DNA of 57,806 nucleotides from assembly GCA_024687165.1 (NCBI GenBank), contig JAILEY010000023.1, forward strand, positions 1 to 57,806, read 5' to 3'. Made by a program: the position numbers and the translations under genes. How positions within the stretch are numbered: the stretch's first letter is position 1; the number at the start of each line of letters is the position of its first letter. The notes beneath the pieces are model-generated. The model ran no database searches, was not told the DNA's origin, and saw only the letters and a list, made by a program, of their open reading frames with translations. The DNA comes from Treponema sp. (lineage in GTDB: Bacteria; Spirochaetota; Spirochaetia; Treponematales; Treponemataceae). Below are positions 12,271 to 26,397 of this stretch, in pieces.

Positions 12271-12308
12271 TGTCATGAAATGAATTTTTTCCGCATATAT
12301 ATATTATG
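12271..12308 (+). promoter_or_regulatory. Leader motif shared with ssb
   Basis: TGTCATG, then AATTTTTT, then a TATATATATT-type box and ATG. The same order and spacing occur at 28946-28984 upstream of ssb, and a related GAAATGAATTTTTTTGCAT stretch precedes the second Rpn gene at about 24712. The TATATATATT probably acts as the -10 region. Confidence 0.4.
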
Positions 12309-12323
12309 AGGAGTTTTGAATTA

Positions 12324-13349
12324 ATGGAAAAAATTATTTTTGAACCACAGTATCCTGCAGAACTGTACACTAAACGACCGAACGAAACAGCACTTTTAAG
12401 TCCTCTCTATGATTCAACCTTTAAGGCAATTTTTACACAGGAAACAGAAGATTCAAATCTTGCGTTAAAAAGCTTTCTGTCGGCAGTACTGAATCGGCAA
12501 ATTTTAACAGTAAAAATAAAAAACAATGAGCCGGTAAAAGAAACCTGTAAGCAGAAAAGCATGACATTTGATGTTAACGTAGAATTTGACAACGGCGAGC
12601 TTGCTGACATTGAACTTCAAACTCATAAAGAAGAATATGATTTTGGAACGCGTGCAGAAATTCAGGCTGCAAGACTGCTTACAAACAGCGCCAAAAGAAG
12701 TAAAAAATGGAAGTCAGAAAAAGTCTACCAGATTTCCATTTTGAATTTTCAATATAATAAGGGTGACAATAAAGAAATGCGATGGTATAATATGACCGAC
12801 AGTTCAGGCAGAAAGCTTGCGGACAGAATAAATATTATTTTCATCGATTTAGTGACAATCAGAAAGCAGTACAACGCAACACCAGAAAAAGAGCTTTCTT
12901 CGCTTGAAAAATGGGGTCTTTTCTTTTCGTACATTGACCACGAAAACAAAAAGAATCTGATACAGAATATTACAGTTTCAGACGAGGGGCTTATGGCAGC
13001 TGAAAAAATCGTAAAAGAAATGAGTAAAGCAGACAATAACTGGTATGTTCAAAATTCCATCTGGGTAGCAAAGCGTGATGAATATACAAGAAAAGCAATT
13101 GCCCGCGAAAAAGGTTTAGCCGAAGGCAGAGCTGAAGGTTTAGCCGAAGGCCGTTTACAGGGATTTGAAGAAGGCTTAAAAAAAGGATTAGACGAAGGTC
13201 ATGCAAAAGGACTCGATAAAGGTCTTGCTGAAGGTCAAAAGCAGAAGGCAATTGAAACGGCAAAACGTATGCTTGAAAAAGAATACCCTGCAGAAGAAAT
13301 TGCTGAACTTACAGGACTTACGGTTGAACAGGTGCTTGAACTGAAATAA
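12324..13349 (+). CDS. Rpn-family PD-(D/E)XK nuclease / 'putative transposase' (TIGR01784-like)
   Basis: 341 residues. The N-terminal half begins LLSPLYDSTFKAIF, then carries the PD-(D/E)XK core MTFDVNVEFDNGELADIELQ (Asp; Glu-x-Gln) and EYDFGTRAEIQAARLL, as in Rpn/RpnA-type nucleases often annotated as transposases. Residues about 265-310 form a charged run of G-(x)3-E/K repeats (GLAEGRAEGLAEGRLQG...), and the last 35 residues (AIETAKRMLEKEYPAEEIAELTGLTVEQVLELK) are the usual C-terminal helical motif. I start at 12324, 10 nt after AGGAG; an in-frame ATG at 12306 would be leaderless. A paralogue with the same C-terminus lies at 24764. Confidence 0.85.
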   Translation: MEKIIFEPQYPAELYTKRPNETALLSPLYDSTFKAIFTQETEDSNLALKSFLSAVLNRQILTVKIKNNEPVKETCKQKSMTFDVNVEFDNGELADIELQTHKEEYDFGTRAEIQAARLLTNSAKRSKKWKSEKVYQISILNFQYNKGDNKEMRWYNMTDSSGRKLADRINIIFIDLVTIRKQYNATPEKELSSLEKWGLFFSYIDHENKKNLIQNITVSDEGLMAAEKIVKEMSKADNNWYVQNSIWVAKRDEYTRKAIAREKGLAEGRAEGLAEGRLQGFEEGLKKGLDEGHAKGLDKGLAEGQKQKAIETAKRMLEKEYPAEEIAELTGLTVEQVLELK

Positions 13350-24429: not shown

Positions 24430-24503
24430 CTATATAAACACCGCCATTGCTCTTGCAAATCACATGGTTCTGGTCATCCGCAACACAAAACGTATACTGA
24501 CAC

Positions 24504-24679
24504 TCCACGTTTTATTTCATATTACTCCACGTTTCATTTCATATTACTCCACGTTTCATTTCATATTACTCCACGTTTCATTTCGTATTACTCCACGTTT
24601 CATTTCATATTACTCCACGAAACGTGGACTGTAATGCCACGACTCGTGGATAAGCATTCCATGAGTTGTGGGAAGCGGA
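24504..24679 (+). repeat. 22-bp tandem array (8 units), the last three being small palindromes
   Basis: Five units of TCCACGTTTCATTTCATATT-AC (starts 24504, 24526, 24548, 24570, 24592) with single-base variants are followed in the same 22-bp register by units starting TCCACGAAACGTGGA (24614), GCCACGACTCGTGGA (24636) and TCCATGAGTTGTGGG (24658). Each of those three forms a hairpin. GAAACGTGGA in unit 6 can also pair with TCCACGTTTC in four of the five earlier units (unit 1 with one mismatch). The array fills most of the 334-bp gap between the HTH gene and the Rpn gene and ends about 85 bp before the Rpn start. Confidence 0.85.
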
Positions 24680-24763
24680 TTCCCAATAGGGAGATCATTT
24701 TTTGTCTCGCGAAATGAATTTTTTTGCATGTCTGCGGTTAATAAGTATATGGAGGCAAAAAAA

Positions 24764-25612
24764 ATGGAGAATAATACAGAAATTACACCAGAACAGAAAT
24801 GGGAACAGGCTACACTTGCCAACAACTTTATTTTTTATAAGGTAATGCGCCATCATCCGGATGCATGTCAGCATCTTTTGGAAATGCTGCTCAACATCAA
24901 GATTGAAAAAATGTCGATTGCAAATGAAGAAGTCATAGACGTAGACCATGATGCAAAAAGTATTCGGCTTGACGTTTATGTAAAAGCAGAGAATCGTGTT
25001 TTCGACATTGAAATCCAGATTGCAAATACAAGGGAACTTCCAGAAAGAGCACGATTTTACAGCTCGGCTATAGATTTAGATACTTTAACAAAAGGAAAGA
25101 GTTTTAGGGATCTGCCTGAGTCTCATATTATCTTTATCTGCATGGAAAATATTTTTGAAAACAATCTTCCTGTATACACCTTTGAAAATATCTGCATTGA
25201 AGACGGATTAACAAAGCTGAACGACAGATCATACAAACACTTTTTTATCGCTCCGACTTGTGCTAAAATGATCGAAGATAAAGAAGTAAGAAGTTTTTTT
25301 GAATTTCTTATTTCAAACAAGGTTCAAACCGGTTACACTTCAGACCTGAGTAAATATGTAGCCGATGCAAAACGCAACACCCAGTGGAGGTTACAGTATA
25401 TGACAGTTGAAACATTAGAACGATATGCCTATGAAAACGGCCTCGAACAGGGTATTGCTACAGGTGCTCAGCAGAAAGCCGTGGAAACTGCAAAAAAAAT
25501 GTTATATGACGAGATTTCTCCTGAGAAAGTTTCTCTTTATTCCGGTCTAACACTTAATCAAGTACTTGAACTGCAAAAAGAAATCGAAGCCAGGCCTGTT
25601 ACAGCAAACTAA
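24764..25612 (+). CDS. Rpn-family PD-(D/E)XK nuclease / 'putative transposase'
   Basis: 282 residues. It starts at the ATG 8 nt after GGAGG (24751-24755) rather than further upstream, where the frame is open. The core SIRLDVYVKAENRVFDIEIQ shows the Asp and Glu-x-Gln catalytic pattern. The middle (LPERARFYSSAIDLDTLTKG, then LPESHIIFIC and FIAPTCAKMIEDKEVRSFFEFL) is typical of TIGR01784-type proteins. The C-terminus (AVETAKKMLYDEISPEKVSLYSGLTLNQVLELQKEI) is clearly related to that of the 12324-13349 protein, though the G-rich repeat is reduced to LEQGIATG. Proteins of this family cleave DNA and promote recombination; no terminal repeats mark this one as a complete transposon. Confidence 0.85.
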   Translation: MENNTEITPEQKWEQATLANNFIFYKVMRHHPDACQHLLEMLLNIKIEKMSIANEEVIDVDHDAKSIRLDVYVKAENRVFDIEIQIANTRELPERARFYSSAIDLDTLTKGKSFRDLPESHIIFICMENIFENNLPVYTFENICIEDGLTKLNDRSYKHFFIAPTCAKMIEDKEVRSFFEFLISNKVQTGYTSDLSKYVADAKRNTQWRLQYMTVETLERYAYENGLEQGIATGAQQKAVETAKKMLYDEISPEKVSLYSGLTLNQVLELQKEIEARPVTAN

Positions 25613-25689: not shown

Positions 25690-26397
25690 ATGAAAAAAAT
25701 CTTTATGCTGTTTTTAATTTTTGCAGCCGCTTCATTTTTATCCGCAGAAGAAATTAAAAAAGAAGAAACGCCGGCTGTTCAGCAGGTTGAAGACTCCGAA
25801 ACAAACGATCATAAAACAGAAAAAGAAACTCCAGTTCTACAAATTGAAGAACACGAAGAAAAATCAGAACCTGAAAATCGCGAAGTAATAAAGTCAGACT
25901 ACAATTACCACAGACAGCACAAATCATTTGAATTTCCAATAACATTAGGATTATTCGGCATGCTTGAAAATGACTTAAATCTTTTTACATTTTTCATGAT
26001 ATTCTATCCGCCGATTTCTGTTTCAGTAATAAATCTTGATTCAAAATTTGACGGTGGATCAGTTTATGAACTTGCAAACAATAATTCATTTTACAGAAAT
26101 GATTTTTTTGAATTCGGATTGCACATGAAAGTTGATCTTGAGATTTTTTACAGATCACTGGGAGCTGGTGGCGGACTTGGAACAGGACTATACATGATAT
26201 TTGATGAAACAATTTTAATCAAAGCCGGCGGCCGCGCAGGATTATACAAAACAGTCCCATATGCAGGACCTGAAGCCTCTATCACTTTCCTGACCGGCGA
26301 CTCAACTAAATTAACCGCTTCATACTGCTACGGATTTACATCAGACCACAGAAAACTCTGGAGAGCTTCCTGCATACTTTCATTTTACGTTGATTAA
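25690..26397 (+). CDS. Secreted/outer-membrane protein of unknown function
   Basis: 235 residues. A signal peptide (MKKIFMLFLIFAAASFLSAEE) has an Ala-type cleavage site near residue 19. It is followed by a Glu/Lys-rich disordered stretch (about 20-75), then alternating hydrophobic strands with many aromatic and glycine residues (FGLHMKVDLEIFYRSLGAGGGLGTGLYM, KAGGRAGLYKTVPYAGPEASITFL, LWRASCILSFYVD), suggesting a small beta-barrel or beta-sheet outer-membrane protein. I do not recognise the family. It is followed by copy 4 of the palindromic repeat. Confidence 0.7.
   Translation: MKKIFMLFLIFAAASFLSAEEIKKEETPAVQQVEDSETNDHKTEKETPVLQIEEHEEKSEPENREVIKSDYNYHRQHKSFEFPITLGLFGMLENDLNLFTFFMIFYPPISVSVINLDSKFDGGSVYELANNNSFYRNDFFEFGLHMKVDLEIFYRSLGAGGGLGTGLYMIFDETILIKAGGRAGLYKTVPYAGPEASITFLTGDSTKLTASYCYGFTSDHRKLWRASCILSFYVD

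Follow-up and report, generated by a model that had tools for sequence, protein, structure and literature searches.

Genes of the Rpn family are often gained and lost by bacteria and have recently been shown to be toxin-antitoxin, anti-phage systems; a recurrent element beside them, constant in geometry but free in sequence, is a testable handle on how rpn expression is contained and how rpn genes move. The window analyzed here (i.e., the whole stretch of 57,806 nucleotides of a contig from a rumen-type Treponema sp.) holds an array of 22-bp units between a gene for an HTH regulator and an rpn gene, and raises the question of what holds a 22-bp palindromic period while the letters drift. A literature search on palindromic arrays in Treponema found nothing beyond CRISPR, and the array in the window is not a CRISPR array, as its units stand head-to-tail and have no spacers.

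Structure of the array in the window

The array is the top-scoring tandem repeat of the whole window in TRF (24502-24619, period 22, 5.4 copies, 96% match, score 222), and reading its register outward yields nine 22-bp units, comprising one degenerate, five near-identical and three palindromic units (Table 1). The degenerate first unit (GCAACACAAAACGTATACTGAC, 24480-24501) sets the beginning of the register, so that the start at 24504 given by an initial annotation of this DNA lies too far to the right. The core of that annotation, a 22-bp array that turns into palindromes in the same register, was confirmed by TRF, by the register reading and by a test of dyad symmetry, in which the whole array exceeded column-permuted controls. 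Palindromes were also found at the three hairpin positions that it had listed (24614, 24636 and 24658), with TCCACGAAACGTGGA at 24614, GCCACGACTCGTGGA near 24636 and TTCCATGAGTTGTGGGAA near 24657.

Four of the five tandem units contain TCCACGTTTC, whose complement, GAAACGTGGA, lies in the following unit. Alternative pairings, as initially proposed, do exist, and the palindromic end folds strongly as RNA (-41 kcal/mol for 24590-24680). The fold is not made up of small hairpins alone, its strongest helix being a 14-bp stem that joins two palindromic units (24637-24650 / 24658-24671). The tandem part, when folded alone as RNA, has no structure (z=0.02). As promoter-like matches were fewer than expected by chance, the site at the left edge of the array is not evidence of a promoter.

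Table 1. Coordinates of the array, its parts and the adjoining features in the window
Feature	Position	Strand	Evidence or remark
HTH regulator gene, PF01381	23776..24429	+	stop codon 51 bp ahead of array
Weak promoter-like site TGGTCA-16-TATACT at left edge of array	24471..24498	+	2 found vs 3.8 expected by chance
Whole array, nine 22-bp units	24480..24677	.	TRF, register reading, dyad test p=0.001
Five near-identical units ACTCCACGTTTCATTTCATATT	24502..24611	+	lag-22 identity 0.97; 88-bp gap vs C45
Three palindromic units	24612..24677	.	lag-22 identity 0.59; fold z=-6.2 for 24590-24680
Terminator-like hairpin TTCCCAATAGGGAG then ATCATTTTTT; weak 5-pair stem and T run	24680..24693	+	1 found vs 0.6 expected in shuffles
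rpn upstream box of ~50 bp, core GCATGTCTGCGGTTAATAAGTATATGGAGG; probable promoter and ribosome-binding site	24706..24755	+	common to four Rpn paralogues of the genome
Rpn-family PD-(D/E)XK nuclease gene, 282 aa	24764..25612	+	TIGR01784 E=1.9e-29, PF12784 E=2.4e-11
Predicted internal start of a 70-aa RpnS-like C-terminal protein	25400..25612	+	in-frame GGAGG 25386-25390, ATG 25400

Genes next to the array

The gene downstream of the array passes the cut-offs of the Rpn family (103.3 bits vs 52.1 for TIGR01784, 44.2 vs 27.4 for PF12784). A structure model of its product (mean pLDDT 65), which predicts a C-terminal helical bundle, gave no usable match in a fold search of the PDB. The sequence of the gene, read with the RpnS concept of PMC10327210, suggests that it may also encode an internal RpnS-like product. 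A second Rpn gene of the window (12279-13346) carries 12/24-bp coding repeats at 13111-13236, in its C-terminal part, which resemble the variable four-residue repeats reported for RpnL/RpnS. The gene to the right of the rpn gene (25690-26397) was found in no other of the 59 genomes searched, and a search of viral contigs gave no match.

In the box upstream of the rpn gene, a 30-bp core shows no difference among four of the genome's Rpn paralogues. As these paralogues form two protein groups with a mutual identity of only about 50%, a near-identical box across both groups is likely the rpn promoter and ribosome-binding region, and its sharing, together with the genome-specific boxes of other genomes, suggests that rpn upstream regions evolve in concert or are exchanged. 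With this box located between the array and the rpn gene, and with no array at two of the four box-bearing paralogues (C60, at about 94% protein identity, and C86), the proposal that the array is a leader of the Rpn gene is unlikely. A link to the HTH protein, also raised at the outset, is not supported, as 11 homologous HTH genes in other Treponema genomes have neither the array nor an Rpn gene directly downstream, and these array-less homologues rule out an operator of the HTH protein as the main reading.

Related arrays in the same genome

The array sequence occurs at only three places in the genome, each beside Rpn, namely in the window (contig C17), in C45 and in C5. The C45 array lies 3' of an Rpn gene and is collinear with that of the window save for a gap of 88 bp, i.e., exactly four units; the region 24612-24677 of the window is 90% identical to C45:6940-7021, and homology between the two places is confined to the array. 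This gap indicates that the unit number changes in whole steps, with the near-identical units of the window having arisen by local expansion of a unit present once in C45 and the palindromic units forming the shared part; variation in unit number, which the initial annotation had anticipated, is thus seen within one genome. In C5, at least 10 diverged units adjoin a 3' fragment of Rpn and lie between the truncated Rpn and a divergent gene. Outside the arrays, no CCACGNNNCGTGG sites were found elsewhere in the genome, which rules out a dispersed regulon and likewise speaks against a link with the HTH protein.

A further 22-bp palindromic array of this genome (G000:C69, L331:15890-16095) lies not by Rpn but between nrdD and a higBA toxin-antitoxin operon; the higBA operon has a consensus-like promoter, and about 2 kb farther along, part of the nrdD 3' end is present as a copy. 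Contig C69 entered the sample because it held a Y1-transposase fragment. A general link of arrays to toxin-antitoxin operons was ruled out by 29 other HigB loci that have no array.

Arrays near rpn genes in other Treponema

Each of the 30 genomes sampled within the genus has Rpn genes. In a survey built on sampled loci, with 2.04 Mb of DNA in the first count, the 467 kb lying no more than 1.2 kb from Rpn contained 11 tandem arrays of period 22 or 44, the 976 kb farther out contained four, and the 437 kb of DNA away from Rpn contained none. Unit sequences are mostly unrelated between arrays, and what recurs is the period of 22 bp, sometimes 23 bp, together with an internal dyad. Of 14 arrays, 12 have a dyad above column-permuted controls (combined p about 1e-16); the exceptions, L094 and L108, are 2.7 and 4.8 kb away from Rpn.

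The scan for dyadic arrays was extended by 420 kb of DNA from the genome of the window, the window included, and by HTH and HigB loci. Nine of the 12 arrays that were not preselected lie near Rpn (L026, two in L076, L085, L086, L092, L140, L270 and L286) and three lie away from it (L277, L116 and L331), which corresponds to 16.8 arrays per Mb near Rpn vs 1.5 per Mb elsewhere, a density about 11 times as high (p=9e-5). One of the nine, in L286 (genome G046, from another genus of the family), is a GC-rich 23-bp array directly behind an Rpn stop codon and was counted with caution, given its low unit identity. With only intergenic bases counted, the enrichment drops to about fourfold or less (p=0.015, or p=0.03 with a homologous pair counted once) because rpn genes occupy gene-poor stretches. 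The association between arrays and Rpn is likely real, though not overwhelming, and the linkage to Rpn first remarked in the window holds in that similar arrays recur beside Rpn genes in other species.

Position of the arrays relative to genes

A stop codon lies within 0-90 bp for 12 of 16 array positions, and four positions are between convergent genes. In tandem contexts, the upstream 3' end is nearer to the array than the next start in eight of eight cases (p=0.004), or in seven of seven (p=0.008) when L277, for which the nearest ORF is doubtful, is left out; since neighboring ORFs were called mechanically, single distances may be off. The window array, 51 bp behind the HTH stop codon, occupies the usual position of such arrays elsewhere, while the nearest 3' end is 118 bp or more away from the arrays of L092/L093 and L270. 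Strong intrinsic terminators with stems of 13-17 bp bound the arrays of L076 (4740-4918), L086 and L140, and their arms are the half-site of the repeat, which links the arrays to 3'-end hairpins. Arrays in L009, L026, L076, L085 and L086 adjoin Rpn fragments or tandem Rpn genes.

Selection at the RNA level

In the dyad columns of 15 arrays, G.U and A.C mismatches were found in equal measure (82 vs 81), with no strand excess, and the folding energies (MFE) of the sense and antisense strands of the 15 arrays did not differ. Compensatory covariation of the arms within hairpins was absent (Stouffer z=0.76) in a test of limited power. Given no G.U bias and no covariation, selection on single-strand RNA structure is not supported, and the suggestion that the RNA of the window array switches between alternative folds is backed by neither strand bias nor covariation. 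The data agree equally well with a role that is bidirectional or exerted by double-strand DNA, and with no function at all.

What the arrays may be

The arrays demonstrably share, as a class, a fixed period, a dyad, an association with Rpn and a position at 3' ends, to which are added a length difference in whole units and terminators made of half-sites at three loci. The reading that we tentatively favor is that these quasi-palindromic 22-bp (sometimes 23-bp) tandem arrays by Treponema rpn genes are a REP/BIME-like palindromic minisatellite that grew from 3'-end hairpins and may serve as a composite terminator or insulator. Slippage or recombination would extend the arms of terminator-type hairpins at 3' ends into arrays, and such composite arrays would then terminate transcription largely in both directions, or insulate a toxic rpn gene from its neighbor; in the window, read-through from the HTH gene may be stopped before it reaches the promoter box of Rpn. 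Several findings speak against this reading. The stem of the terminator-like hairpin in the window, a G+C stem followed by a T run, is weak at five pairs, with strong stems being found at L076, L086 and L140; one array lies by higBA (C69, L331); the C5 array is not placed accordingly, and those of L092/L093 and L270 are far from 3' ends; the tests for selection on RNA structure were null; and function as a terminator does not predict a fixed period of 22-23 bp.

REP and BIME elements are short extragenic palindromic units of 20-40 bp with regular spacing and alternating orientation, for which a role in termination and mRNA stability has been discussed (PMC2817692, PMC3733652). The window array resembles them in its 22-bp unit size, significant dyad and intergenic location; by contrast, Treponema arrays are few per genome, differ in sequence from locus to locus, have a head-to-tail period of 22-23 bp and are enriched by rpn. 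The array sequence is confined to C17, C45 and C5, and the draft genome, which is 97% complete, yielded only a 28-residue fragment of a RAYT (Y1 transposase) gene, below the cut-off. Given this low copy number and the lack of a RAYT gene, the array is not a REP/BIME by membership.

A close rival of the favored terminator or insulator reading is that the arrays are a functionless palindromic minisatellite, a possible though rather doubtful explanation in which hairpin-prone DNA beside recombination-prone rpn genes, duplicated in tandem, both gains and loses units by slippage and both dyad and period are products of mutation. The unrelated sequence at each locus, the gain of whole units, the lack of detected selection at the RNA level and the many arrays that adjoin Rpn fragments or tandem Rpn genes are all consistent with this explanation. 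However, independent arrays share one period (22 bp, in a few 23 bp) with no spread, mutation alone would not be expected to favor 3' ends, and hairpin-templated correction predicts covariation of the arms within units, which is absent overall.

It is unlikely that the arrays are series of DNA-binding half-sites, with an orientation that alternates every 11 bp (one helical turn), which are bound cooperatively in the manner of plasmid iterons that have an inverted-repeat operator, e.g., by the HTH-like C-terminal domain RpnS. The strict two-turn register and the fact that the dyad resides in the consensus columns and not in single hairpins would suit such binding, as would the plausible internal RpnS start in the window Rpn gene. 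Iteron arrays, e.g., that of R6K, consist of direct repeats of about 22 bp in helix phase and a palindrome built from the half-site. Treponema arrays are likewise helix-phased repeats of about 22 bp with a half-site palindrome, but their dyad runs through the array and half-sites differ between neighboring arrays; furthermore, no replication initiator or origin was found near the window array, which is flanked by the HTH regulator and Rpn. Arguments against bound half-sites are that arrays have no evident common motif, with three different half-sites in one intergenic region of L086, that Rpn paralogues with the same upstream box are array-less and most arrays lie 3' of genes, and that the genome has no other CCACGNNNCGTGG sites. 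In favor of this reading, PMC10327210 describes RpnS as a variable three-helix bundle that forms dimers and has a predicted relation to HTH.

Less likely still is that the arrays are DNA elements defined by geometry, in which two-turn tandem palindromes with fast-changing letters are recognized by shape or phasing (e.g., by Rpn) to control or protect the locus.

An improbable alternative is that the arrays are sites of recombination or cassette exchange that shuffle rpn genes, by a REP/RAYT-like, attC-like or Rpn-cleavage-like process. Members of one array family do flank Rpn genes on sides that vary from gene to gene (C17, C45 and C5), and arrays separate tandem rpn genes in L076 and L086; on the other hand, the genome has no full RAYT gene, reading of the sequence 24480-24693 found neither integron attC core box (GTTRRRY / RYYYAAC), and neither a target duplication nor defined ends were found. 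RpnA reportedly cuts without sequence specificity (PMC5350276), which also counts against such sites. For published rpn genes, PMC10327210 identified neither inverted terminal repeats nor target duplications on their flanks, and the text considered here mentions no flanking palindromic arrays; the window Rpn gene appears similar to the RpnS-type genes described there in its probable internal RpnS start.

Least probable of all is a type III-like RNA antitoxin, i.e., transcribed repeats and a terminator followed by a toxin gene, a reading discarded on grounds of position and toxin family. In type III toxin-antitoxin systems (ToxIN, CptIN), the toxin gene is preceded by short tandem repeats with a hairpin (PMC8860590, PMC4627078), and the window does present a promoter-like site, repeats, a terminator-like hairpin and a toxin-family nuclease in this order. 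The adjacent gene, however, belongs to the PF12784 / TIGR01784 family of PD-(D/E)XK DNA nucleases and not to the ToxN/CptN/TenpN fold, and Rpn is a nuclease acting on DNA that is paired with a protein antitoxin of its own (PMC10327210). The array, moreover, is optional and often 3' of Rpn, being missing at C60 and C86 and downstream in C45, its tandem repeats are unstructured as RNA, and the promoter match is no better than chance.

Further observations on rpn loci

Other genomes have their own genome-specific box upstream of rpn, e.g., ATTGCCGGAATTTGCA in G004; these observations on upstream boxes refer to 24706-24755 of the window and to L021, L022 and L008. In the genome of the window (G000), the end of C60 and the start of C47 both lie inside an Rpn gene, and the draft assembly thus probably breaks at rpn copies. 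Finally, a separate family of GC-rich repeats of 21-23 bp (TGTCATTGCCG / CGGCAATGACA) forms arrays in L060, L113, L245, L249 and L250, and the arrays of this family are often near Rpn genes in G001 and G005.
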